Of a stretch of DNA of 64,000 bases, positions 1,447 through 47,597 are shown piece by piece. Each line of letters starts with the position of its first letter. Position 1 is the stretch's first letter. Made by a program: the position numbers and the translations under genes. Origin of the DNA: Anoxybacter fermentans (lineage in GTDB: Bacteria > Bacillota > Halanaerobiia > DY22613); NCBI RefSeq assembly GCF_003991135.1, contig NZ_CP016379.1:186001-250000 (forward strand), written 5' to 3'. The notes below the pieces were generated by a model. That model saw only the letters and a list, made by a program, of their open reading frames with translations, did not search any database and was not told the origin of the DNA.

Positions 1447-2481
1447 ATGAGAGTTATAAGGGAAGATTTGTTTTTTGATTATCTTTATAACAAGTTAGTA
1501 AAAAGTGTAAAATTACGAATCGGTCAAGGGTGTAGTGGTGAATGTTCTTTTTGCAATATCCGTGAAAAAGAAGGAGAAGAAGTAATTTATCCTCCGGCAG
1601 ATAAAATTAAAAAAGGATTACTTGAGCTGTGGGAGAGTGGGGTTAGACACCTTGATTTTATGGATGATACGTTCCTGTTAAATGGCGATGAAATGGGGAA
1701 TATTTTAAGAAACTTGATGGAGAGGGGAGTCGGTTTTACTTTTTCTATTGTCAGTCCGGTAAAAACTCTCATTCGTAATCAAAAATATCTAACCCCCTTT
1801 AAACAATTGGGATTACGACGGATAACTTTGCGGGTGGAAAATTCCAATGAGGATGTTTTAAGTCGTTATAACATTAAAGCAACCAGGGCCGATAAGCAGT
1901 ATGCGATTCAAATATTGCAGGCATTGCGGTTTCAGATTCACCTTCATTATATTCTTTTTGAACCTTTGACTACCCTTGAGCATTTGAGAAATGATTTTAA
2001 TTTTCTCGAAAAATATAACCTATTGGGCCTTGTTCCTTTTACCGATATTCTTACTAGCTATCTGGATCTTGACAAAGATACTCCTATCAGTCGGGAATAT
2101 GGGAATCGTCAGTTGATTAAACCATCTTCCAATTCACTGCTGCCGTATCAGATTTTTCAAAAGGAAGTAGAAGAGATATTTTACTGGCTTTTGTATTTTG
2201 AAAAGGAGTTTGGGAAGAGGTTTGAAGATATTTATAACAAGCTTTTACAGTTCAGAATAGATCTGGCAAAAGAAAAACCTAACTGGGCTTTGACGCATCA
2301 AGGCCAGGAACTGATGTATATTATATTGAAACTGAGAATGCTGCCATATGAGCTTTTTAAAGAGTTGTTAAACAGCAATAATGATCAGATTGCAGAAGGT
2401 GAAATGAGAAGAAAATGTGAAATAAAGCTTTCGGAGGTTGAGGAAAACTATAGGTGTTATCGAAAATGTTATAATTTATAG
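1447..2481 (+). CDS. Radical SAM protein
   Basis: 344-residue cytoplasmic protein. The sequence GQGCSGECSFCNI (Cys29, Cys33, Cys36) is a CX3CX2C cluster of the radical SAM type, which binds a [4Fe-4S] cluster and cleaves S-adenosylmethionine. It is followed by barrel-like segments (GVRHLDFMDDTFL, GLRRITLRVENSNED), as in MiaB/Elp3-like or B12-radical SAM proteins. No B12-binding, TRAM or SPASM domain is recognisable. The C-terminus is Cys-rich (CYRKCYNL), which could ligate a second cluster. The start ATG follows GGGAGAAGAGAAA. The gene stands alone between palindromic copy 1 and the IS. The substrate is unknown; only the superfamily call is secure. Confidence 0.75.
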   Translation: MRVIREDLFFDYLYNKLVKSVKLRIGQGCSGECSFCNIREKEGEEVIYPPADKIKKGLLELWESGVRHLDFMDDTFLLNGDEMGNILRNLMERGVGFTFSIVSPVKTLIRNQKYLTPFKQLGLRRITLRVENSNEDVLSRYNIKATRADKQYAIQILQALRFQIHLHYILFEPLTTLEHLRNDFNFLEKYNLLGLVPFTDILTSYLDLDKDTPISREYGNRQLIKPSSNSLLPYQIFQKEVEEIFYWLLYFEKEFGKRFEDIYNKLLQFRIDLAKEKPNWALTHQGQELMYIILKLRMLPYELFKELLNSNNDQIAEGEMRRKCEIKLSEVEENYRCYRKCYNL

Positions 2482-2805
2482 ATTTAATTTTGACAGAAAT
2501 AATGACTATTTTATTGATGTAAAAAATGGATAAGGAAAGTTTTACAAGAAAAACAGGAAAAATTAATACTAAAGGAGAATGAATATAATAGAAACGTTAA
2601 GATAGGTAAATATTTAGATAGCTAATGCAGTTATATTGTATTACACCCTTTAATAAAATTTAGTGAGGTATAAAATATGTTTTTTTTGGTACAATATAAA
2701 AAAGTTTAAAAGGGTATGATACAAATGAAAAGAAATTATTATTTTTTATGGAAAAATAGATTAGGGGGGGATGTATGTTTAAGTCCAGGTTAGGTAAAAA
2801 TTCTT
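2482..2805. other. AT-rich gap with a possible truncated gene start
   Basis: No complete gene. A strong ribosome site (AGGGGGGG) precedes ATG at 2774, which opens MFKSRLGKNS and runs straight into the IS end at 2806. This could be the 5' stub of a gene interrupted by the IS, possibly the one whose 3' part survives after 14312. The link is inference; nothing in ten residues proves it. Confidence 0.35.
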
Positions 2806-4199
2806 GGCTCTCCGTCAAATGTTGTGAAAGATAAGTTGGCTCTGTTGAATTGATTGATAAATTGATTTTGAAATAAACATTTAAATTTAATAACTTAACA
2901 TTGAATTAAATACTCTTCTCCTTAGATTCATAACATTTGGAACACCATATCCGATCCTTTTGATCAATTTAATCTTGTTATTGATACCCTCAGCAAAGCC
3001 ATTGGTTATCTTAGTCTTAAAATAATTTAGTATTTTTTCTTCCCATCTTTGTATTATCTTTTTTACCTGGTAAAAAGGTATCAGCTTGCTTTTTATTACT
3101 TCTTTATACCACCTTTTTAGAGCTCTGGTGGCTTCTTTTACATCATCTAGCTGCAATAAGTCTCTGAATTCCTCTTTTAATTCCCAGGCCTTTTCTAGAG
3201 CTGGACTGAGTTCAAATAATTCGATGAGCTTTTCATGTTCTTCGTCTGTCAGTTCCTCAGCTCGTTTTTGGAGTAATAAACGAATTTGAAAAAACTTTCT
3301 TCTCTGATGATTATTTAGTGTTTGTTGAACTTGTTTTCTAACTTCGTCAAGGGCTTTGTTCATTAAAGTTACAAGGTGAAATTTATCTATAACAATTTTT
3401 GCATGAGTAAATGCTGTATCTGCTACTGCTTTAAACGGACGCCACATATCCATAGAAATCGATTGAATTTGCCGTCTTTGTTCATCTTCCCAATAATTAA
3501 AGTAGTTAATTAAATCATCCTTTTTGCGGGTAGGTAAATGTCAATTAACTCCCGATTAATTGGATCTGTAATGCTAACTCCATATTTATGGCGTTTTAAA
3601 ACTGCAAATTCATCGATACTGATGGCTTTTAATTGACTAAGTTTTGAAAGTTGTTGTTCAATGAGAGGGTCAATTACTTTTTTAACTGCATTATTAACAG
3701 CTGTATAACTTAACCCGTTTTCTCTAGCAACTTTAGAATAATCCTTGCTGACAGTTTCTTTAGCAAGACATTTATCAAAGCGTTTGGTATTACGGGCATA
3801 TTTATCAATACTTTCATATTTTTCAGGGATGCCCCTTTTATGACAATAAGGACAACGATATCTTTTCTTTAGAAGTCTAATGATTACTAGTTTACCTCTT
3901 ATGGGGATGTCTCTAATATTTTGCCATTTTGTATCATGGATTTTATTAGTGATATTACCACACTGAGGACACACAATGTGATTTTTCTTTGCTTCAGCGA
4001 TAAAAATATATCTGTCCTCCGTTGAAATAATTTCAGTTGCAATAATGTCTGGCAAATCAAGAAATTTTATGATATTATTATCTTGCATTTGCTGGGCTCC
4101 TTTCTTTGGTTTTTAGTTCGCAACTAATTAATTCAACGGGGCCAGCAAATGCCTTTTTATTTTTTATAATTTTTTCTTCACAACATTAATTATAGACCC
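2806..4199 (-). mobile_element. ISL3-family insertion sequence, copy 1 (transposase frameshifted)
   Basis: 1394-bp element bounded by imperfect ~25-bp inverted repeats: GGCTCTCCGTCAAATGTTGT at the left, and the complement of GGGTCTATAATTAATGTTGT at the right. It is nearly identical to the copy at 12918-14312 but in the opposite orientation, so the two enclose about 8.7 kb. Its 8-bp flanks (AAATTCTT left, AAAAGTAT right) are not direct repeats, so no target duplication is visible. Confidence 0.9.
2887..4088 (-). pseudogene. ISL3-family transposase, inactivated by a 1-base deletion
   Basis: Compared with the intact copy at 13029-14231, this gene has lost one T in a T-run (ATTTACC instead of ATTTTACC) near 3535-3540. 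The frame breaks after INRELID, giving an N-terminal half (3510-4088, zinc ribbon CPQC...CPYC, helix-turn-helix and first catalytic Asp in SIDEFAV) and a C-terminal half (2887-3453, from MDMWRPFK with IVIDKFHL to MLSY). A few other substitutions separate the two copies. It is probably inactive itself, but the intact copy could mobilise it in trans. Confidence 0.9.
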
Positions 4200-4359
4200 A
4201 AAAGTATTTGGGGAAAGAATACGGTTTTATAGAAATATATAGTTATAAAAAAATTGTAGATTTATTGGAGGGAAATGAGATAGATAATTAAAATTAGCTA
4301 TTCTATAATTTGTCTTTGTAACAATACTGTCAGGGTATTGCTTTTTATTATGAACTTTT

Positions 4360-5071
4360 TTAAGATTTTTTAAATAGAAATAATGTGTGTTTGGCAAGAT
4401 AAAAATTCTGCATTTGACCATATTTTTTTCCAGCATCCTCATTTCCAACATTAATACTTAATGGTAGAGTGTTTAATCTGCAATTTTCTCCTATAAATAT
4501 CAAAAGATAGCTATGATGTATAAATCTGTTAATTATTACATTTGTCATTCTTTCATCGTAAAATATATTTATCCATTTGCTGAATTCCAGATTGGTTGTT
4601 ATTATAAGGCTCCTTTTTTCATAGCATTTTGCTATAACTTGAAAGAGCAGCTGGACTCCTTCTCTATCTAAAGGAATATACCCCCATTCATCGCAGATTA
4701 ACAACTCTGTCTTTTGAATCTGCTTAAGAAACTTATTCAATTTACCTTCAGTTTTTGCTTCTATTAGATGATTCACCAAGGTTGCTGTCCTGTAAAACTT
4801 AACCTTCATTCCTCTATTACATGCTTCAATACCAATCGCTGTTGCCAGATGGTTTTGCCAGAAATTCCTTATGAGTATCTGCAATAATTTGTGGATAATT
4901 TCTTACTATGCTTTTGCCCAGTCTCAATTGCTTGCAATACTCTGCTATTAATTGTTTTATTCTACACATATCCTTTCCATAGGAGGTGATCATAAACCGA
5001 TATGTCTGTGCGGTATGATGCTAATTTCGGGATATCATCAGATGATTTAATATCTTCGTATTGATTTTTTG
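4360..5071 (-). pseudogene. IS21-family remnant (istA tail and deleted istB)
   Basis: Read leftward, the end of an IstA-like transposase (SYRTDISVYDHLLWKGYV, about 5071-4965) overlaps an IstB start at 4969 (MCRIKQLIAEYCKQLRLGKS). IstB reads to HKEFLAK and then jumps to a different frame, resuming at QNHLATAIGIEACNRG. The Walker A segment and roughly 60 residues before it are missing. The Walker B region (LLICDEWGYIPLDREG) and sensor (SLIITTNLEFSKW) remain. The C-terminus runs into unrelated sequence. IstB is the ATPase helper of IS21 transposases; this copy cannot work. It lies between the ISL3 copy and the glycan genes, showing repeated insertion at this site. Confidence 0.85.
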
Positions 5072-5390
5072 TCCTATATCATATATAATATAAATGAGTA
5101 ATTGTTTTAAATAACTTTTTCTCATTTTATCAGCACCCTTTTTTGTTTGTGGTAAAACAATTATAAAAAGGATGCTTTTATTTTACAAATTTTTCTTCAA
5201 TAATTTCCAATAAAAAATGAAAAATCTAAAATTCATAATGATTCTTAACAACTTCTTATAAATCAACGGGCTATCGTCCTAAAAAATTTTCAAGTGCTAA
5301 AATTTTGTAAGGAAGGTAATTGGACGAGATATTATGTGATTTTAATTTCTATGGATTTAAAGAATATTCAAGACTTATAGGAGGAAATTT
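5072..5390. other. AT-rich gap
   Basis: Contains no recognisable gene. A ribosome site (AGGAGG) just before 5391 belongs to the deacetylase gene that follows. Confidence 0.5.
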
Positions 5391-6345
5391 ATGTCATCAA
5401 AATTATACTTTTCTATGTACCATTATGTCCGCGATTTAAAAAATAGTCGTTTTCCCAAAATTAAAGGTTTAGATTAAGCAACAATTGGAATTTTTCAAAC
5501 AGAATTTCAATGTAGTTACAATGGAAGAAGTGATTGCAGCTTATAAAGAAAGTTATGACCTTCCAGAAAATGCACTACTACTAACATTTGATGATGGTTA
5601 TATTGATCATTACTTATATGTAATGCCAGCACTAAAGGAATATGGAATGCAAGGATCATTTTTTGTGCCAGGAAAGATTATTGAAGAACGTACTTTGCTG
5701 GATGTGAATAAAATACATTTCATTTTGGCTAGTTCTAATATTCAAGTTCTATTGCGAGACTTATTTAAAAAATTGGATTATTATCGAGGGCGGGAGTTTT
5801 ACTTCCCATCTAACGAAGAACTTTTTGCAGAGTATGCAGTAGCAAATAGATTTGATTGCAAAGAGGTCGTTTTCTTTAAGAGAATTCTTCAGGTAGTTCT
5901 ACCAGAAAGGCTTCGTTCAAAAATTGCTAGTGAGATGTTTGAAGAACATGTTGGAATAAGGGAAGAAATTTTTGCAAGAGAACTTTATTTAAATTATGAT
6001 CAGATGAAATACATGAAAAAGAAGGGGATGTATTTTGGGATTCACGGTTATGATCATTATTGGATGAATATGCTGAGTTTAGATGAATTGAAACAGGATA
6101 TTACGAGGGCATTAATATGTATGGATGAATTGGTTGATTCGAATTGTTGGGTAATAAATTATCCATATGGTTCTTATAATGATGATGTAATTGATTGTGT
6201 AAAATCTATGGGGAGTATACTTGGAGTTACAACAGATTTAGGTATTGTAGATTTAAATACGTGTCATCCATTCAAGTTACCACGTTTGGATACAAATGAT
6301 TTTCCACCAAAAAGTAATACTTATTTAAAATTCAGGTACTATTAA
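5391..6345 (+). pseudogene. Polysaccharide deacetylase (NodB domain), frameshifted near its N-terminus
   Basis: The true start is ATG 5391 behind AGGAGG. The protein reads MSSKLYFSMYHYVRDLKNS...KIKGLD and stops at TAA 5475. The frame resumes as KQQLEFFKQNF from about 5479, so a single extra base (GAT-T-AAG) or a two-base loss explains the break. The rest is intact: the NodB metal motif TFDDGY, FFVPGKII, IHGYDH (second metal site) and NYPYGSYND. Such enzymes remove acetyl groups from glycans outside the membrane. With the break it would give a 28-residue peptide, unless translation reinitiates downstream or the base is a sequencing error. First gene of the glycan cluster. Confidence 0.8.
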
Positions 6346-6429
6346 TAAATATTTATGAAATATTTATGCAAAAAGCGAGACATAAAATTTATATAATTTC
6401 CGATATATATTGGGGAGGAAATAAGTACA

Positions 6430-7479
6430 ATGAATAAATTTGATGAAAGATATATTATTCGGTTAGCAAACATATCAGATATTGATAATATCATGCGTTT
6501 TATTGATAAATACTGGAAAAAAGGACACATAATGGCTCGTGATAAAGAATTATTTAAATACGAATATGCAGATGGTGATAACTTGAATTTTGTTTTAGCT
6601 ATCGATAAAAATACTAAACTAATTGAAGGAATATTTGGATTTTTAAAATGTTCAAATACGAAAGATCCTAAAAAGAAAGATATTTGGGGCAGTATTTGGA
6701 AGGTAAATGATTCGCATGACAACATGCCACTTCTTGGAATTGAACTTGCAAAACGAGTATTTACTTTGACGAACTGTCGCACTCATATAGGAAATGGTGC
6801 AAATCCTAACACCACAATTCCGTTAAGAAGAATATTCTTCGGTGATAAAGTAGTTAAAATGAAGCAATATTATTTACTTAATCCATATATTGATGACTAT
6901 AAAATTGCACTAATAAAAAACAAAGTTAATGGGATTACTATTTCTACGCAAAATGAAACAACTTTGCGGGAATTCCATTCAATTGATGAAGTAAAAAAAC
7001 ATTTTGATATAGAAAGTATTGATGCAATTCCATATAAAGATAACTGGTATGTTAATAAGCGTTACTTTTGCCACCCATATTATAAATATAAGGTATACGG
7101 ATTGGCAGATGGAACAGGGAAAATAGGTGCATTAATGATGGCGCGAGTAATTGAATGTAATGGCAGAAAGGTATTTAGGATTGTAGATTATATTGGAAAT
7201 CACAAATTATTTGCTGGACTATCTAATCAATTTCAACAATTGATAAAAGACAATGATTTTGAATATATAGATTTCTATACATATGGTTTTGATGAGGAAT
7301 CAATCTTAAAAGCTGGATTTAAACTTAGAACAGACGAGGATCCAAATGTAATTCCAAATTACTTTGAACCATTTGTACGTGAAAATATTGATATATGGGC
7401 ACATTATAAACTTGAGGGTACTTTATTTTTCAAAGCTGATGGTGATCAAGATAGACCGAATATAATTAGGAGTATTTAA
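6430..7479 (+). CDS. GNAT-like protein of a surface-glycan cluster
   Basis: 349 residues, soluble. The N-terminal ~110 residues (YIIRLANISDIDNIMRFIDKYW, then FVLAIDKNTKLIEGIFGF) have the order of a GNAT acyltransferase fold: an action-on-substrate helix, then a strand that normally reads 'vae..g.ivG'. A second, similar segment occurs near residues 220-300 (KIGALMMARVIECNGRKVFRIVDYIG). Together they suggest a tandem GNAT-like protein, as found in capsule and O-antigen clusters. No catalytic residue can be assigned. The start ATG follows GGGGAGG at 11 bases. It sits between the deacetylase and the FkbM gene with only 6 bases to the next, so probably co-transcribed. Confidence 0.5.
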   Translation: MNKFDERYIIRLANISDIDNIMRFIDKYWKKGHIMARDKELFKYEYADGDNLNFVLAIDKNTKLIEGIFGFLKCSNTKDPKKKDIWGSIWKVNDSHDNMPLLGIELAKRVFTLTNCRTHIGNGANPNTTIPLRRIFFGDKVVKMKQYYLLNPYIDDYKIALIKNKVNGITISTQNETTLREFHSIDEVKKHFDIESIDAIPYKDNWYVNKRYFCHPYYKYKVYGLADGTGKIGALMMARVIECNGRKVFRIVDYIGNHKLFAGLSNQFQQLIKDNDFEYIDFYTYGFDEESILKAGFKLRTDEDPNVIPNYFEPFVRENIDIWAHYKLEGTLFFKADGDQDRPNIIRSI

Positions 7480-40399: not shown

Positions 40400-41899
40400 A
40401 TGAATTTTCTAAAGAGGGTTTCAATAATTACTCTGATTTTTGTTTTGACTGTCTCTGTATTGGCTTTTGCGGCAGAACCGGTTAAGGTGACCATTCTACA
40501 TACCAATGATACTCATGGTCGGATTGCCAGCTTTACACCTAGAGGAGAAGAAAAGGAAATTGGCGGCTTTGCACGAATCTTAACTCTCATTAATAAGATA
40601 CGGGCAGAAGAGGAGAATGTTATTCTTCTGGATGCTGGTGATACTTTACATGGAACCAATTTAGTAAATCTGCAAAAGGGTTTGAATATGCTAACTTTGC
40701 TCAATACTATGGGTTATGATGCTATGGTTCCAGGTAATCATGATTTCAATTATGGTTATAAACATCTCTTGAAATTAGCTAAGTTTGCTAAGTTTGATAT
40801 AGTCTCTGCCAATGTTGAAAAAGATGGTGCTTTACTTTTTGCTCCTTATACTATTTTGGAAAAAGGTGGTTATCGTTTTGCTATTTTAGGTATATCTACA
40901 CCGGAAACACCAATCACAACCCATCCAGCTAATGTTGCCGGATTGAATTTTGTTGATCCAATTCAGAGAGTTAAGGAGATAGTTGAAAAGTTAAGTGGTA
41001 GTGTTGATTTCATTATTATGTTAAGCCATCTGGGTTATGAAGGTGACAGGATGATTGCTGAGCAGGTTCCAGGTCTGGATATAATTATCGGTGGCCATAG
41101 TCATACTTCTCTGGAAGAACCTGTGGTGGTCAATGGTGTAATTATTGCCCAGGATGGAGATTATGGTCGGACTCTGGGCCGGATTGATTTAACCATTGAA
41201 GATGGTAAGATTATTAAATACAGCGGTCGATTAATCCCTGTTAAAGATACAATTGCTAAAAATCCGGTAGTAGATGTTGTTGTAAAAGCATATGAAGATA
41301 AATTGAGGACTTTGATGGGAGAAGTTGTAGGTACTACTTCAGTAGATCTTGTAGGTGAGCGTGCACTGGTTCGGACTCAGGAGACTAACCTGGGTAATTT
41401 GATTACTGATATAATGTTAGCTTATTGTGATGCTGATCTGGTTATGACCAATGGCGGGGGAATTCGCGCTTCCATTGCTAAGGGTGATATTACCATTGGT
41501 GATATTTATACCGTTCTTCCATTCGATAATACCCTGGTAGTTCTTGAGTTGACTGGTGCTCAGATTAAAGCTGCATTGGAGCATGGTGTGAGAAAATATC
41601 CGAAACAAAATGGTGGATTTCTCCATGTTGCAGGTATGACTTATGCTTTTGATCCTAATAGACCCGCTGGTGATCGGATAGTGGAGGTTAAAATTCGGGG
41701 TAAAGACTTAGATTTAAATAAAATCTATCGGGTAGCCACTAATGATTTCTTAGCTGCTGGTGGAGATGGTTATTCTATGTTCACTGAAGGAACCATTGTC
41801 TATCAGTCCGGGTCATACTTACGTGATCTGATGGTTGATTACTTAAGAGAACATGGTTCTGTTTCTCCTGAGGTAGAGGGGCGTATTACTATTCGCTAA
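40400..41899 (+). CDS. Secreted 5'-nucleotidase / UshA-family metallophosphoesterase
   Basis: 499 residues. A signal peptide (MNFLKRVSIITLIFVLTVSVLAFAAE, cleavage near 24) exports it. Metallophosphoesterase domain: ILHTNDTHGRI, LLDAGDTLHGTNL, VPGNHDFNYG, IIMLSHLGYEGD, IIGGHSHT. The C-terminal nucleotidase domain (~310-480) has ETNLGNLITDIMLAYCDADLVMTNGGGIRA and VATNDFLAAGGDGYSMF, the substrate-binding loop. It hydrolyses nucleotides (or cyclic/sugar nucleotides) outside the membrane for phosphate and nucleoside scavenging. No cell-wall anchor is visible. It stands alone between two palindromic copies. Confidence 0.94.
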   Translation: MNFLKRVSIITLIFVLTVSVLAFAAEPVKVTILHTNDTHGRIASFTPRGEEKEIGGFARILTLINKIRAEEENVILLDAGDTLHGTNLVNLQKGLNMLTLLNTMGYDAMVPGNHDFNYGYKHLLKLAKFAKFDIVSANVEKDGALLFAPYTILEKGGYRFAILGISTPETPITTHPANVAGLNFVDPIQRVKEIVEKLSGSVDFIIMLSHLGYEGDRMIAEQVPGLDIIIGGHSHTSLEEPVVVNGVIIAQDGDYGRTLGRIDLTIEDGKIIKYSGRLIPVKDTIAKNPVVDVVVKAYEDKLRTLMGEVVGTTSVDLVGERALVRTQETNLGNLITDIMLAYCDADLVMTNGGGIRASIAKGDITIGDIYTVLPFDNTLVVLELTGAQIKAALEHGVRKYPKQNGGFLHVAGMTYAFDPNRPAGDRIVEVKIRGKDLDLNKIYRVATNDFLAAGGDGYSMFTEGTIVYQSGSYLRDLMVDYLREHGSVSPEVEGRITIR

Positions 41900-41910
41900 A
41901 TTTAAAGATA

Positions 41911-42106
41911 TGATTAAACTGCAAAAAGCTAATTTTGAGTGCTATTGAAATTTTTCGTTAAATCATCTTAGTGAAATTTCAGTCGAAATAAGGCCTCATC
42001 ACAGGATGTATTGATTAGTGTGCCTTATTTCGACTGAAAATCAAACTTTAGATGGTTCGAAAAATTTCTTTATGAAGCAGAAAATTAGCTTTTTGCAGTA
42101 AGATCA
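41911..42106 (+). repeat. Long palindromic element, copy 7 (short chimeric centre)
   Basis: 196 bp, starting 12 bases after the nucleotidase stop. The centre CCTCATCACAGGATGTATTGATTAGTGTGCC shares the same junction as copy 6, so both descend from one deleted form. Flanks are GATA on both sides (41907-41910 and 42107-42110), a candidate 4-bp target duplication. Confidence 0.92.
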
Positions 42107-42125
42107 GATATTAACTTATCTGAAG

Positions 42126-42160
42126 AAGCACCATCTAAATTTTTGGGATGGTGCTTTTAA
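42126..42160 (+). terminator. Intrinsic terminator between nucleotidase and sigma operon
   Basis: AAGCACCATC, 11-base loop, GATGGTGCTT, TT. Just after palindromic copy 7. Confidence 0.8.
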
Positions 42161-42191
42161 TATTTTTGGTGAAAAAATTTTCAAATTGAAA

Positions 42192-42217
42192 TGAACCTTT
42201 TGCATATATCAATCGTC
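42192..42217 (+). promoter_or_regulatory. ECF-type promoter of the sigma operon
   Basis: TGAACC, 16-base spacer, CGTC. This matches the -35 AAC / -10 CGTC pattern of ECF sigma factors. It lies 39 bases before the sigma gene, implying autoregulation. Confidence 0.75.
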
Positions 42218-42255
42218 ATATTAACGACGGGATGAAAAAAAGGAGGGGATAGCCT

Positions 42256-42771
42256 TTGCAGGAAATAGAATTGGTTCAGCGTGCCCAAAAGGGAGATAGA
42301 AAGGCGTTAAAAGAACTTTTACAAATGAATTATTCTATTCTCAAAGGCTATCTTCTAAAAATCACTTTGGATCCTGATCTGGCGGCAGATTTGACGCAGG
42401 AGACAATGCTTAAAGCAATTCTGAAATTGCAAAAATTTAAGGGCCAGTCTAAATTTTCGACCTGGCTTATAACTATAGGTTCAAATCTTTATCGGGATTA
42501 TTTAAAGAAAAATCGCCATCTAATAATGGTAGATTATCCGGAACGATTTGAATCGATAACGGAAATGAAAGAAGCGGGATTAATTATTGAAGAAATGCTT
42601 TTAAAATTACCAGCAGAAAAACGTATGGTTTTAGTCCTAAAACACTATTTTGGCTACACATATGAAGAGATTAGTAAAATAATCAAATGTCCGGTCGGGA
42701 CAGTTAAATCCAGAATGTATTATTGTCTGGAATTTTTACAGAACCAGATTGAAAGGGGGAATAAGGGTTGA
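42256..42771 (+). CDS. sigY: ECF RNA polymerase sigma factor, SigY-like
   Basis: 171 residues from TTG 42256, seven bases after AGGAGGGG. Region 2: DPDLAADLTQETMLKAILKLQKFKGQSKFSTWLITIGSNLYRD (~40-85); region 4: LPAEKRMVLVLKHYFGYTYEEISKIIKCPVGTVKSRMYYCLEFLQNQ (~115-165). No region 3, as for ECF factors. The gene order after it (zinc-finger anti-sigma-like, zinc-ribbon membrane protein, ABC ATPase, permease, YxlE-like protein, ABC ATPase, permease) parallels the Bacillus sigY-yxlCDEFG operon, with an extra transporter. Probably directs RNA polymerase to its own promoter just upstream. Confidence 0.9.
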   Translation: MQEIELVQRAQKGDRKALKELLQMNYSILKGYLLKITLDPDLAADLTQETMLKAILKLQKFKGQSKFSTWLITIGSNLYRDYLKKNRHLIMVDYPERFESITEMKEAGLIIEEMLLKLPAEKRMVLVLKHYFGYTYEEISKIIKCPVGTVKSRMYYCLEFLQNQIERGNKG

Positions 42772-43160
42772 GTTGTAAAATTTTTCGTCAGCAAATGATG
42801 GATCTGATTTATTGTGAGGGTAAGAGTGATCTTACTTTAGAAATACATCTTAAAAAATGCCCCCAATGTGCAGAGTTCTGGTCTAATTTACAGCATGTTA
42901 AAGAGATGTTGGGAGAGATGATACCTCCTGAAGAAACAGGTTTAGTAGAAATTAATAATGTAATACATAAAGCCAATTCGATTCTAAAAATGTGTAGGTT
43001 AGTTAATGATTTGATAAAATTTGGTGGCCTTATTAGTCTGGTATTCTTAATTTATTATCAATTTTATTTGTGGTTTGGTACAGAAGGATTGCTATCCATA
43101 TATCTCGTTTTTTATATAACTCTTCCTTTTTCTCTAATCCCGTTAAAAAATTTGAATTAG
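42768..43160 (+). CDS. YxlC-like membrane anti-sigma factor with HxxxC-CxxC zinc finger
   Basis: 130 residues from TTG 42768, overlapping the sigma stop (TTGA) behind GGGGG. The N-terminal SCKIFRQQMMDLIYCEGKSDLTLEIHLKKCPQCAEFW has the His-x3-Cys-x2-Cys of zinc-finger anti-sigma domains (ZAS). Two membrane helices occupy ~85-125 (FGGLISLVFLIYYQFYLWF, LLSIYLVFYITLPFSLIPL). By position and motif it holds the ECF factor inactive at the membrane until a signal arrives. Coupled translation with the sigma factor supports the partnership. Confidence 0.8.
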   Translation: MSCKIFRQQMMDLIYCEGKSDLTLEIHLKKCPQCAEFWSNLQHVKEMLGEMIPPEETGLVEINNVIHKANSILKMCRLVNDLIKFGGLISLVFLIYYQFYLWFGTEGLLSIYLVFYITLPFSLIPLKNLN

Positions 43161-43175
43161 CCAGGAGGGAGTTAA

Positions 43176-43508
43176 ATGAATCTGTGGTTGTTTATATTAA
43201 TAGGATTTATTTTAGCTGCACAGGCGGTCTGGATTTTTCTTGATGCCAGAAAAAGGGGAGAAAGTTACTGGCTCTGGGGGTTTTTTGGCCTTTTAAATTT
43301 TCCCAGCAGTTTAATTATTTATCTCCTCGTTACCAGAACAAAAAAGATAACCTGTCCTGATTGTGGGCGGAAATTCAGCAAAAATAATAACTGCTGTCCT
43401 CATTGTGGAGGTGCAACACTGACATGTCCTGGTTGTCATGAACAGATTCAGATAAGTTGGGTTTATTGTCCTTATTGTTCATGTAAATTAAAGGAAGGAG
43501 ATGATTAA
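43176..43508 (+). CDS. Membrane protein with double zinc ribbon
   Basis: 110 residues; start ATG after AGGAGGGAG. Two N-terminal helices (LWLFILIGFILAAQAVWIFLDA, YWLWGFFGLLNFPSSLIIYLLV) resemble the YxlD/PLDc_N-like two-helix module. They are followed by a cytoplasmic tail with four CxxC pairs: CPDCGRKF, CCPHCGG, CPGCHEQ, CPYCSCK (residues ~60-105), enough for two zinc ribbons. Within the sigma operon it could act as an extra sensor or anti-sigma component. Function unknown. Confidence 0.65.
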   Translation: MNLWLFILIGFILAAQAVWIFLDARKRGESYWLWGFFGLLNFPSSLIIYLLVTRTKKITCPDCGRKFSKNNNCCPHCGGATLTCPGCHEQIQISWVYCPYCSCKLKEGDD

Positions 43509-44456
43509 ATGGATTATGCGATAGAGGTTCAGGGGTTAAGCAAGAAATTTGCTGAGAAATATGCTGTTAAAGATTTAAATTTTCAAATACAGAGAGGGGA
43601 AATTGTGGCTTTTTTGGGGCCAAATGGTGCAGGTAAGACTACAACTGTTAGATTATTAAATGGAGTATTACGACCTACAGCAGGTACCATAAAGATATTG
43701 GGTTATGAATTGAATAGGGATGTTATAAAGATACAATCAAGAACTGGAGTGGTTACAGAGACTTTTACTCTTTATGAAAGGCTTACTGGAAGATATAATT
43801 TAAAATTTTATGGAAACCTTTATGGTTTAAAAACAGATGTGATCAATCATAAAATATCTGCTATGATTTCATTTTTTAATTTTGAAGATTATATTGATCG
43901 ACCAGTTGAAACATATAGTACGGGAATGAAGAAAAAGTTATCTCTGGCTAGAGCTCTTTTGCATGATCCTGAAATACTTTTTTTAGATGAGCCTACAACC
44001 GGTCTTGATCCTGAAGCATCCCGTACAGTAATTAAGTATATAGCAAAGTTGAATCAGGAGGAAAAAAAGACAATTTTTTTATGTACTCATAACCTGGAGG
44101 TAGCTGAAATTTTAGCTACCAGAATTATGCTTATTGATAAAGGCCAACTTATTACTATTGGAACACCTGATGAATTAAAGAAGAAGTTGTGGCCTGATGT
44201 TCAGGTAGATATTGAGTGCAAAATGTGGGGGAATGAGAAGAAAGAAAAGATATATGAAATTGATTGGATAACCGATATTAAAGATATTGGAAATAAAGAG
44301 GGAGTAACTAAATTATCTATTAATGTTGCTGAAAGAAAGTATATTCCTGATCTAGTTGAAATCTTGATTCAACAGGGGTGCCGTATTTTTTCTGTGGTGG
44401 AAAAAGAACATTCTTTAGAGGAGATATATTTTAAATTGAGGGAGGGAAAAAAATGA
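43509..44456 (+). CDS. ABC transporter ATP-binding protein (first of two)
   Basis: 315 residues. Walker A GPNGAGKTTTVRLLNG (~37), signature YSTGMKKKLSLARALLHDP (~137), Walker B EILFLDEPTTGLDPEASR, and H-loop FLCTHNLEVAE, all intact. The C-terminal ~90 residues form the extra domain found in export-type (drug/lantibiotic/gliding) ATPases. The permease at 44453 overlaps its stop by four bases, so the two form one exporter. Transcribed from the ECF promoter. Confidence 0.93.
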   Translation: MDYAIEVQGLSKKFAEKYAVKDLNFQIQRGEIVAFLGPNGAGKTTTVRLLNGVLRPTAGTIKILGYELNRDVIKIQSRTGVVTETFTLYERLTGRYNLKFYGNLYGLKTDVINHKISAMISFFNFEDYIDRPVETYSTGMKKKLSLARALLHDPEILFLDEPTTGLDPEASRTVIKYIAKLNQEEKKTIFLCTHNLEVAEILATRIMLIDKGQLITIGTPDELKKKLWPDVQVDIECKMWGNEKKEKIYEIDWITDIKDIGNKEGVTKLSINVAERKYIPDLVEILIQQGCRIFSVVEKEHSLEEIYFKLREGKK

Positions 44457-45274
44457 ATGTCGGGAAAATAAAAGCCATTGTTGCAAAGGACATTAAAGAA
44501 GTTACAGAGAGTCTGCAGATGCTGGTACCAATAATAGTGGTGCCACTGATAATTTTGGTGATAATTCCACTGGTATTAATTCTTTTACCTCGTTTTATAG
44601 AAATCCCTTCAAATATGCATCAGATTATTGATAATATGATAAAAAATATGCCTATAATAATGAAAAATAAAATTATTAATTTTGATCAACAACAATTACT
44701 TATTTACATGATGATTAATTACTTTTTTGGGCCGCTTTTTTTAATTATACCGCTGATGGTATCGAGTATAATTGCTGCCAATAGTTTTGCGGGTGAAAAA
44801 GAGAAAAAGACTTTAGAAGGTCTTCTCTATGCTCCCGTTACTGATTTTCAATTATATTTGAGTAAATGTCTTGCTGCATTTATTCCGGCAGTATCAGTTG
44901 CTTTTATTGGATTTGTTGTATATGCTATAATTATCGATATATTAACTTATCCGGTATTTGGTTTTTTAATTTTACCAAATAGTCATTGGATAGGTTTAAT
45001 ATTATGGTTGGTACCTACGTTTTCTTTCTTCGGTCTTGGTGTAACAGTACTTGTATCTGCAAAAGTACGGGGATTTCAGGAAGCACAACAGTTAGCTGGA
45101 GTTGTAGTAATTCCGATTTTAGCAATGATTATTATGCAATTAAGTGGTGTTATCTTTCTCAGTGGATGGGTTATTTTTATAATTGGTTTCATTTTTCTAC
45201 TGATGGATATATTTTTGCTTAAAATTGGAGCTAATTTGTTTAAAGGAGATAAAATATTAGATAAGTTCGTATAA
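44453..45274 (+). CDS. ABC-2 type transporter permease (first of two)
   Basis: 273 residues with about six membrane helices. The N-terminal helix (MLVPIIVVPLIILVIIPLVLILLPRF) is followed by an extracytoplasmic loop, and the typical ABC-2 phrase SSIIAANSFAGEKEKKTLEGLLYAPV near 105. Later helices include AAFIPAVSVAFIGFVVYAI and VVVIPILAMIIMQLSGVIFL. Overlaps its ATPase partner (ATGA). Substrate unknown; relatives export antibiotics, peptides or Na+. Confidence 0.9.
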   Translation: MNVGKIKAIVAKDIKEVTESLQMLVPIIVVPLIILVIIPLVLILLPRFIEIPSNMHQIIDNMIKNMPIIMKNKIINFDQQQLLIYMMINYFFGPLFLIIPLMVSSIIAANSFAGEKEKKTLEGLLYAPVTDFQLYLSKCLAAFIPAVSVAFIGFVVYAIIIDILTYPVFGFLILPNSHWIGLILWLVPTFSFFGLGVTVLVSAKVRGFQEAQQLAGVVVIPILAMIIMQLSGVIFLSGWVIFIIGFIFLLMDIFLLKIGANLFKGDKILDKFV

Positions 45275-45311
45275 AATTGAAATGTTTTCCAGTCAGAAGG
45301 AGGGGATGAAA

Positions 45312-45530
45312 ATGTTTGAAGGGATGACTTTGGCTGAAATTCTAAAACTGTTATTACCTTTGATTATGATTCAGGTGATTTTAATTATTATTACCCTGAC
45401 TGTTTTGATCAAGGCTGAAAGGGTGCGCTTTATGCCAAAATGGGCCTGGGCATTGATTATTATCCTATTTTCCAATCTTGGTCTTGGGCCTATTGTTTTT
45501 TTAATCTTTGGAAGAGAGAAGGATGTGTAA
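45312..45530 (+). CDS. Small two-helix membrane protein (YxlE / PLDc_N-like)
   Basis: 72 residues from ATG 45312, with AGGAGGGG seven bases upstream (the in-frame ATG 45306 touches the ribosome site). Two hydrophobic segments: LLLPLIMIQVILIIITLTVLI, then a basic loop KAERVRFMPKWAWALIIILFS and GLGPIVFLIFGREKDV. WAWALIIILFSNLGLGPIVFLIFGR is typical of PLDc_N-type modules such as YxlE in the sigY operon, where it helps restrain the sigma factor. Its place between two ABC units mirrors that operon. Confidence 0.8.
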   Translation: MFEGMTLAEILKLLLPLIMIQVILIIITLTVLIKAERVRFMPKWAWALIIILFSNLGLGPIVFLIFGREKDV

Positions 45531-45533
45531 ATT

Positions 45534-46460
45534 ATGCTTGAAGTAAAAAATCTGATTAAAAGATATGGAAATTTTACTGTTTTGAAAGGGATTAACTTTA
45601 CTATTGAAAAGGGTAGTGTTTTTGGTTTTCTTGGGCCAAACGGTGCTGGAAAATCTACAACTATGAACATTTTAACTGGCTTAATTGATTATGAAGAAGG
45701 TCAAATTTTCCTGGATGGTCAGGACTTTGGTAAGAATAAAGAGACTTTACGACTCCGAATTGGGTATCTTCCCGAGAATCCGATTTATTATCCCTATATG
45801 AATGCTTATGAATATTTATGGATGATTGGTGATTTAAGCGGGTATCCGGTCAATCAAATAAAAAAACGTATAGATGAATTACTTAAGTTGGTTGGGTTAA
45901 AGGATGCAGCTAGACGAAGAGTGGGCGGTTATAGTCGCGGGATGAAGCAGCGTCTCGGTCTGGCAGTGGCTCTCTTTAACCATCCTGATTATCTTTTTTT
46001 AGATGAACCGACTTCCGCTCTGGATCCTGAAGGTAGATTGGAAATGCTTAAGCTGATGGAAGAGTTAAAAGAATTGAAGATTACAGTATTTCTCTCTACT
46101 CATATCCTGGCAGATGTAGAACGGGTCTGTGATAAAGTAAGTATTCTTCATAAGGGTGAGATAAAATTGACAGAAACTATGGTAGATTTGCGGAAAAAGT
46201 TTATCCAACCTATCTTCGATCTGGAAATGGAGGGGAATCTTGAAGAAATTAAAGATGAACTGAAAAGATTGGAATGGGTAGAAGAGGTGCATATTGATGA
46301 ATCTAAGATTGCTGTATATGTGACTGATCTTGAGATTGGAAAAAAAGAATTACCTCAGGTCATTGGACGGTTAAAGATGCCACTTATTTCCTATAAGATC
46401 CGTCAGACTACATTGGAGGATATTTTTATAAGGATGGTGAAGAGAGATGAGAACTTTTAA
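45534..46460 (+). CDS. ABC transporter ATP-binding protein (YxlF-like)
   Basis: 308 residues. Start ATG comes 4 bases after the previous stop. Walker A GPNGAGKSTTMNILTG (~37), Q-loop region GYLPENPIYYPYM, signature YSRGMKQRLGLAVALFNHP (~133), Walker B YLFLDEPTSALDPEGR and H-loop FLSTHILADVERV. A C-terminal accessory domain ends it. It overlaps its permease gene by 14 bases. Second exporter of the ECF operon, equivalent to YxlF in Bacillus. Confidence 0.93.
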   Translation: MLEVKNLIKRYGNFTVLKGINFTIEKGSVFGFLGPNGAGKSTTMNILTGLIDYEEGQIFLDGQDFGKNKETLRLRIGYLPENPIYYPYMNAYEYLWMIGDLSGYPVNQIKKRIDELLKLVGLKDAARRRVGGYSRGMKQRLGLAVALFNHPDYLFLDEPTSALDPEGRLEMLKLMEELKELKITVFLSTHILADVERVCDKVSILHKGEIKLTETMVDLRKKFIQPIFDLEMEGNLEEIKDELKRLEWVEEVHIDESKIAVYVTDLEIGKKELPQVIGRLKMPLISYKIRQTTLEDIFIRMVKRDENF

Positions 46461-47211
46461 GGCCTATTTTAGAAAAGAAATCATCGAATCCTGGCGGCAA
46501 TATCGGTATCTAATATTGGTAGTGGGGTTTATCTTTTTTGCTATTCTTGGCCCGGTCATGATCAAACTGCTGCCCGTTATACTTAAAGGTAAAATTCCAG
46601 AAGAATTGATCAGATTAATTAATTTTACACCGTTAGAAGCAGCTCGCAGTTATATGAAGGATGTATTTCAAATTGTTAATCTCTTCGTGGTTCTGAGCTT
46701 AATGGGAATTTTCAGTGACGAAATTAACAATCAGAAGCTGGTTTTTCCCTATTCTAAAGGGGCGCGGATTGAAGGAATAGTGTTGGCAAAATTCAGTCAT
46801 TATGCAATAACTATTTTTATATGTTCTCTTTTGGGTTTTGCATTGAATACATATTATGTCAATTCACTCTTTAAAGGGGATAGGGTTAGTTATGCTCAGA
46901 TGATGGGATCAGCATCTCTTTTTGCTCTCTATTATATTTTTACTATTGCACTGCTCTTTTTCTTAAGTAGTCTAACAAGGCGGGGTATTGCAGCGGGAAT
47001 TACTGTGCTTTTGTTTAATTACTTATCTCCCCTGGTTCTTCAGCTATTCAGGTTACAAGGTTGGGTACCGCATACGCTGGTAATTCAAGCCAATAGATTG
47101 GGGATGGTAGATTCAGGACTTTTAAAACAGATTTTGGTGAGTGTTATTTTCTATATTTTAATTTTACAGTGGCTAACTATAAGAAAGATGAAAAAAGTGG
47201 AGGTAGTTTAA
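46447..47211 (+). CDS. ABC transporter permease (YxlG-like)
   Basis: 254 residues, six helices. Opens RTFKAYFRKEIIESWRQYRYLILVVGFIFFAILGPVMIKLLP, the usual 'KEL.E..R..R' start of ABC-2 permeases. Later segments: FQIVNLFVVLSLMGIFSDEINNQKLVFPYSKG, ALYYIFTIALLFFLSSLTRRGIAAGITVLLFN. Last gene of the ECF operon; a strong terminator lies about 115 bases downstream. Pairs with the ATPase at 45534. Confidence 0.88.
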   Translation: MRTFKAYFRKEIIESWRQYRYLILVVGFIFFAILGPVMIKLLPVILKGKIPEELIRLINFTPLEAARSYMKDVFQIVNLFVVLSLMGIFSDEINNQKLVFPYSKGARIEGIVLAKFSHYAITIFICSLLGFALNTYYVNSLFKGDRVSYAQMMGSASLFALYYIFTIALLFFLSSLTRRGIAAGITVLLFNYLSPLVLQLFRLQGWVPHTLVIQANRLGMVDSGLLKQILVSVIFYILILQWLTIRKMKKVEVV

Positions 47212-47326
47212 ATTAAATCAGAGGGATTTAAAAACGATGATATTGAAATTTTAAAAGAAGCTCATCAATCTAGATTATGAGATCTTTCATCATAAATGGA
47301 CCGATGATATTAATGTGATAGATTAA

Positions 47327-47365
47327 AAAGACAGCCGTACACTTAAGTCAGGCTGTCTTTTTTAT
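47327..47365 (+). terminator. Terminator of the ECF operon
   Basis: AAAGACAGCC, 14-base loop, GGCTGTCTTT, TTTTA. Directly followed by palindromic copy 8. Confidence 0.9.
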
Positions 47366-47373
47366 TTTGTAAT

Positions 47374-47597
47374 TGATTATACTGCAAAAAGCTAATTTTG
47401 AGCGATATAGAAATTTTTCGTCAAATCATCTTAGCGAGATTTCCGACGAAATAAGGCCTTATCACAGGAGGTGATGAGCTAATCAAGGGCCAAGGAGGGT
47501 CCTTTGATTAGGAAGCCTTATTTCGGCGGAAATCGAGCTTTAGATGATTCTAAAAATTTCTCAAGAAGCGAAAAATTAGCTTTTTGCAGTAAGATTA
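47374..47597 (+). repeat. Long palindromic element, copy 8 (long form)
   Basis: 224 bp with both inner hairpins: CTTATCAC-AGGAG-GTGATGAG, and CTAATCAAGGGCC-AAGGAG-GGTCCTTTGATTAG. The left end is TGATTATACTGC, the right end GCAGTAAGATTA. Confidence 0.93.

Follow-up and report, generated by a model that had tools for sequence, protein, structure and literature searches.

In Bacillus subtilis, SigY is among the less understood extracytoplasmic function (ECF) sigma factors. Published sources list yxlC, yxlD and yxlE as encoding the anti-sigma-Y factor, a component and a negative regulator, respectively (PMC4326333), link SigY to sublancin and SPbeta maintenance (PMC10141391, PMC8270828), cite nitrogen deficiency as raising SigY activity (PMC7439481) and describe induction of SigY-regulated genes by ethanol stress (PMC3498285). 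Here we analyze a SigY-type operon of Anoxybacter fermentans. The stretch of DNA analyzed (64,000 nucleotides, hereafter the window) corresponds to positions 186001–250000 of the 3.56-Mb single-contig genome, and positions 42192–47363 of the window form a single predicted transcription unit bounded by two terminator-like hairpins. With a probability of about 0.62, we read this unit as a self-contained SigY-type module that activates its own transcription, answers its signal by export and is restrained by two membrane proteins. Its novelty is modest and lies in the stacked exporters, their separate recruitment, the pattern of exchangeable exporters among relatives, and the presence, in certain non-Bacillaceae forms, of a zinc site in each of the two brakes. 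The open-license literature searched contained no SigY operon with two exporters or with a zinc-ribbon YxlD, which does not show absence from print.

An earlier note, made from the sequence, had described eight genes running from a sigma factor to a second permease. All eight open reading frames (ORFs) were indeed found on the + strand, tightly packed or overlapping; the zinc-ribbon gene abuts the first ATPase gene, and both ATPase genes overlap their own permease genes. The likeness to Bacillus sigY-yxlCDEFG that the note had pointed out also held in a neighborhood comparison, made with the Bacillaceae loci L147–L150 rather than with the B. subtilis operon itself. Homologs of yxlC, D, E, F and G are collinear in the window, and one exporter pair is inserted between D and E. 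The order sigma, YxlC, YxlD, YxlE (PLDc_N-like), ATPase, permease is common to both, and the four Bacillaceae operons carry TGAACG-N16-CGTC before sigma, resembling the window promoter. In contrast, the Bacillaceae forms have a YxlC (DUF5345) without the ZAS zinc motif, a YxlD without ribbons and a single exporter.

The first gene (42256–42771) starts with TTG behind a good ribosome site, overlaps the anti-sigma gene by 4 bases and encodes a protein with Sigma70_r2 and Sigma70_r4_2 domains (Pfam). Its score against the SigY equivalog NF007216 (NCBIfam) passed the cut-off of 194 by only 0.1 bit (194.1 bits), so that its assignment to the SigY family stands, barely. In the sigma tree, the window protein pairs with that of G299 (support 100/98), the nearest relative found, which belongs to the same family and whose sigma is 64% identical. 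The G299 locus (L127) shares the ZAS anti-sigma, the double-ribbon YxlD, the YxlE-like protein, exporter 2, the N16 promoter and the gene order, but is without exporter 1.

A candidate ECF promoter, TGAACC-N16-CGTC (42192–42217, +), ends 38 bases before the sigma TTG, and the + strand from 41850 to 42256 has no listed sigma-70-like promoter. Of 59 SigY loci, 45 have the motif TGAAC-N(15 to 17)-CGT[ACT] ahead of the first operon gene; it was absent from the opposite strand of the same 59 stretches (0/59), counts that include many close relatives and are not independent draws. The remaining 517,523 same-strand bases of these loci held 11 matches, equivalent to 0.007 per 310 bases. In an initial set of 34 stretches, the motif was found in 19, against none on the opposite strand, two when read backwards and a mean of 0.14 (maximum 2) in shuffles. 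Among the 14 motif-less loci, L147 carries the motif just beyond the scanned stretch, a looser pattern picks up a CGAAC variant in L034, L193, L201 and L203, and L029 and L033 show similar sequence as judged by eye. L031 and L226 are cut contigs, and in L037 and L194, where the scan covered only the stretch before sigma, the exporter genes come first; none of these explanations applies to L036, L197 and L234. In 13 loci exporter-1-type genes stand ahead of sigma, and in 10 of them the motif lies before the exporter, linking its transcription to the SigY promoter. This conservation supports the earlier claim that the promoter is autoregulatory, as predicted from sequence.

A genome search for further promoters of this kind, which the earlier note had proposed, returned no second credible one with the two patterns tried, and a wider SigY regulon was accordingly set aside. 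The strict pattern (TGAACC-N15..18-CGTC) matched 11 times, against 4 when read backwards, and the relaxed pattern (TGAACY-N16-CGTY) 13 times without enrichment (18 read backwards), the window's own match being included in both counts. Eight of the other 10 strict matches fall inside ORFs of at least 157 aa, and the remaining two, both judged by eye, sit at a CRISPR-like array end and in a dispersed-repeat copy; all 12 other relaxed matches fall inside ORFs of at least 100 aa. One of the relaxed matches (L249), within an ORF, lies 106 bases ahead of another ORF start and was not counted. Of the genome's matches to these two patterns, only the window's is both intergenic and ahead of a gene. The N15 spacing was scanned solely as TGAACC-N15-CGTC, so sites such as TGAACT-N15-CGTT, found ahead of the paralogous sigma of L040, may still be targets. 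At L121 (near 721176), a motif match was seen at the end of an apparent CRISPR array, with repeat-like sequence just before it by eye.

The second gene (42768–43160, +) encodes a YxlC-like membrane anti-sigma factor of the ZAS type, with a probable zinc site formed by Cys3, His27, Cys31 and Cys34. Its HLKKCPQC stretch (residues 27–34) fits Hx3Cx2C and lies on model helices 2 and 3, the arrangement by which class I ZAS motifs are defined (PMC7406223). Cys3 is invariant in 10 aligned rows; because the rows were picked for the motif, only Cys3 is informative. No Pfam family was assigned (best match E 0.17). The C-terminal part gave a match to a profile built from the YxlC proteins of Bacillaceae and similar loci (E 1.2e-8, 95.6%, 90 columns). 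The AlphaFold model (mean pLDDT 78, pTM 0.35) shows three helices followed by two long ones, which could form a membrane hairpin. When residues 1–52 of the model were compared with known structures, the best chains were anti-sigma domains, namely two from AlgU-MucA (Z 6.5 and 6.0), RslA (5.2) and PupR (4.4). The protein shares the zinc motif and N-terminal helices with class I membrane ZAS factors, but its sequence similarity to named families is weak. YxlC of Bacillaceae-like loci is Pfam DUF5345 (62–85 bits in 4/4 tested: L148, L149 and L151, named Bacillaceae, and L025), and the ZAS motif occurs in the YxlC of none of six named Bacillaceae loci.

The third gene (43176–43508, +) encodes YxlD with a C-terminal double zinc ribbon (DZR PF12773, 32.5 against a gathering cut-off of 27.3) that has two complete C4 sites. 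The earlier note had seen Cys-rich ribbons in place of a plain YxlD. The ribbons are real, but they replace nothing; the membrane half aligns with YxlD of 17 relatives, Bacillaceae included, with six invariant columns, and the ribbons are a C-terminal addition to it. Nor are they peculiar to the window, being shared by many relatives including the nearest, which has a single exporter, whereas none of six Bacillaceae loci examined carries them. The structure model of YxlD is poor (mean pLDDT 67).

A profile of YxlD at E 1e-6 found matches in 40 of 398 genomes of the phylum and 4 of 59 of the class, and in 4/12, 14/29 and 25/37 genomes of three further class samples, all these samples overlapping. 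An ECF sigma gene lies just upstream in 63 of 69 loci with a YxlD ORF, which is not an unbiased rate because part of the loci were picked by their sigma gene. The six without it are L190 and L191 (contig ends), L199 and L200 (the weakest matches), L229 and L233.

Downstream of YxlD, the window encodes two complete exporters, as the earlier note had claimed; both ATPases match ABC_tran (Pfam) and retain intact Walker A, signature, Walker B and H-loop motifs. Exporter 1 consists of a DrrA-like ATPase (43509–44456, +; TIGR01188 287.5 bits, under its cut-off of 312.45) and an ABC-2 permease (44453–45274, +; PF12730 39.3 bits against 27), whose sole match in NCBIfam, at 39.9 bits and far under the cut-off of 435, is to a fusion of ABC permease and CPBP protease. 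A YxlE-like small membrane protein follows (45312–45530, +; PLDc_N, PF13396, 25.7 against a gathering cut-off of 23.3), and by ribosome-site spacing its gene probably starts at the ATG at 45312 rather than at the ORF opening at 45282. Exporter 2 comprises a YxlF-like ATPase (45534–46460, +), with 69% identity to its counterpart in the nearest relative and placed with the Bacillaceae sigY-operon ATPases in one starred group of 22 rows, and a YxlG-like permease (46447–47211, +), which reaches no Pfam cut-off but scores 46–55 bits against the final genes of four Bacillaceae sigY operons.

The sigma–YxlC–YxlD core is constant across loci, and the exporters vary. Among 60 SigY loci typed with a 100-bit bar over a span reaching 2.3 kb upstream and 3.8 kb downstream of the sigma start, 27 have only the YxlEFG (ATP2) type, 15 only the exporter-1 (ATP1) type, one (the window) both and 10 neither, while seven are cut or partial. 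One of the seven (L194) has an ATP2-type gene just beyond the span, and one of the 10 (L152) encodes large ABC proteins that are of neither type. On the sigma tree, exporter type requires four changes among 41 single-type rows. The exporter-1-only loci (15/60; e.g., L030, L032, L038, L227–L232) share the core, the promoter, a DrrA-like ATPase and an ABC-2 permease with the window, but they are without YxlEFG, place the exporter ahead of sigma in 12 of 15 cases and carry an exporter of a different clade.

Exporter 1 of the window has a history separate from theirs. Its permease pairs with that of L041 (Bacillota), a locus with no SigY match within its 16.8 kb, and its ATPase branches beside the L041 ATPase, below all other ATP1 rows (tree of 42 rows, with bars of 170 bits and 250–380 aa; six Bacillaceae loci offered as SigY-free rows are not in it). 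Approximately unbiased (AU) tests rejected placement inside the SigY-linked exporter-1 clade (p 0.0029 for the ATPase, 0.0017 for the permease), and acquisition from SigY-linked exporter-1 operons was rejected on this basis, subject to the tree caveats given below. Because it groups with SigY-free relatives, exporter 1 was probably recruited independently. The G+C fraction at third codon positions is 0.247 and 0.237 in the exporter-1 genes and 0.327 and 0.345 in those of exporter 2; this support for a different origin is weak because the anti-sigma gene is also low (0.267). A CPBP/Rce1-like protease gene adjoins the exporter pairs of L041 and L042. Such a protease beside an exporter is a setting known for peptide self-immunity, and this neighbor is no more than a hint at a substrate class.

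Taken together, these features suggest the following scheme. At rest, YxlC, the ZAS anti-sigma, and the double-zinc-ribbon YxlD would together hold SigY at the membrane. A signal from the envelope or from within the cell may loosen the YxlC/YxlD complex, and the SigY so freed would transcribe its own operon from the single TGAACC-N16-CGTC promoter. The earlier note had suggested a response to a toxic peptide or a metal; no feature of the sequence points to any one signal. Induction would then raise sigma, both brakes and the two ABC-2 exporters together. The exporters would be the output, most likely clearing a compound that is toxic and probably peptide-like or amphiphilic, and YxlE would be a small accessory protein. 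The YxlEFG exporter would have been inherited, and the second exporter inserted between yxlD and yxlE in this lineage. The comparison separates constant parts (sigma, YxlC, YxlD, promoter) from an exchangeable one (the exporter), which makes the questions of signal and substrate testable.

Several points weigh against this reading. Promoter activity is deduced from motif conservation, and the substrate is a guess from transporter class. The best structural match of the anti-sigma N-terminal part (Z 6.5, root mean square deviation 2.6 over 52 residues) is within the range where helical folds can agree by chance, and Foldseek found no match to the model reaching E 0.001. The sequence match of the anti-sigma is likewise weak (16.5 bits against a cut-off of 50), and in a profile search of the PDB, RsiW appeared at E 0.68, below unrelated MntH chains. 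The exporter counts depend on the score bar and the limited span. The clade tests were set after the tree was seen, the branches are long, and the SigY-free rows number just three (ATPase) or four (permease) and were themselves found with the window permease. Finally, the zinc sites may be structural only.

In a broader proposal, SigY would be a plug-in export controller with a fixed sigma–YxlC–YxlD sensor core. One branch of it would have a core made with two zinc-thiolate proteins (ZAS YxlC and ribboned YxlD), the YxlD ribbons and the YxlC zinc site together making up a single membrane brake, absent from the Bacillaceae forms, that senses metals or thiols; onto the core, exporters of separate origin would be loaded, swapped and, in the window, stacked. 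Zinc sites occur in relatives outside the Bacillaceae, and the Bacillaceae loci examined are without them. Over 58 rows (no anti-sigma was found in L193, and L039 and L040 were left out), 15 have both the ZAS motif and YxlD ribbons, 33 neither, seven only ribbons and three only the ZAS motif. Each trait needs just four changes on the sigma tree. Correlated loss of the sites is not claimed, as the independent-pairs test, with three pairs that lie on starred branches, has no way of reaching 0.05. Published work describes groups in which class I anti-sigmas with and without zinc are mixed, and considers that the motif may be structural (PMC7406223). We hold this proposal only tentatively and think it rather doubtful.

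The coexistence of two exporters might instead be transitional, one replacing the other and one of them redundant. The four exporter-type changes would fit such swapping, as would the occurrence of both types in the window alone among 60 loci and the placement of L034, with the YxlEFG type, in a clade where the other two rows are of the exporter-1 type; yet both ATPases keep their motifs, all frames are open and exporter 1 falls outside the clade of its SigY-linked relatives, which makes a swap in progress unlikely. Bce-type exporters act on their histidine kinases, and the exporters here might similarly belong to the sensor, with transport or a substrate-bound exporter setting the state of YxlC/YxlD. 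In at least 43 of the 60 loci, exporter genes are neighbors of the brakes and share their promoter, but in 10 of the 60, all with enough context, neither exporter type lies near the core, and exporter type switches on the sigma tree while the core stays unchanged; we regard this coupling as distinctly unlikely. Least probable to us is that the two ABC-2 exporters act as one unit on one substrate. A locus without SigY in Atribacterota (L044) does have two pairs in direct succession, one of the exporter-1 type and then a second ATPase with an ABC-2 permease, but the types occur singly in 27/60 and 15/60 SigY loci. The preferred reading remains that of an autoregulated export response with YxlC and YxlD as its brakes.

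L044 carries, at 2019–6609, two tandem ATPase/ABC-2 permease pairs and then a DUF6544/DUF6920 gene, and no SigY match was found in the 11.7 kb examined. The A. fermentans genome itself holds a paralogous core (L040, ~16.9–18.8 kb) with an ECF sigma 37% identical to that of the window, a ZAS anti-sigma and TGAACT-N15-CGTT ahead. Its 287-aa protein combines an extended N-terminal part with a double zinc ribbon and a hairpin that weakly resembles PLDc_N/YxlD, and none of the window's exporters lies alongside. L039, from another genome, resembles L040, and its second protein is without the ZAS motif.

An intrinsic-terminator-like hairpin (42124–42158, +) sets the operon apart from a 5'-nucleotidase-like gene upstream (stretch 42115–42170: fold −18.3 kcal/mol, z −5.11 against shuffles), and the operon ends at an intrinsic terminator with a hairpin and a run of T (47325–47363, +; stretch 47325–47368: −17.8 kcal/mol, z −6.45). 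Neither hairpin is among the entries of a simple scan, and an Rfam scan of the window at gathering cut-offs gave no matches. Beyond the hairpins, the operon has a copy of an imperfect palindromic repeat on either side, at 41917–42102 (~186 bp) and 47381–47593 (~213 bp). The second copy is absent from the matches listed for the first, and their kinship was judged by reading the sequence. The first copy has at least 40 matches in the genome at 79–100% identity (40 of 677 candidates scored), and the repeats are like miniature inverted-repeat transposable elements (MITEs) or intergenic repeat units (IRUs).

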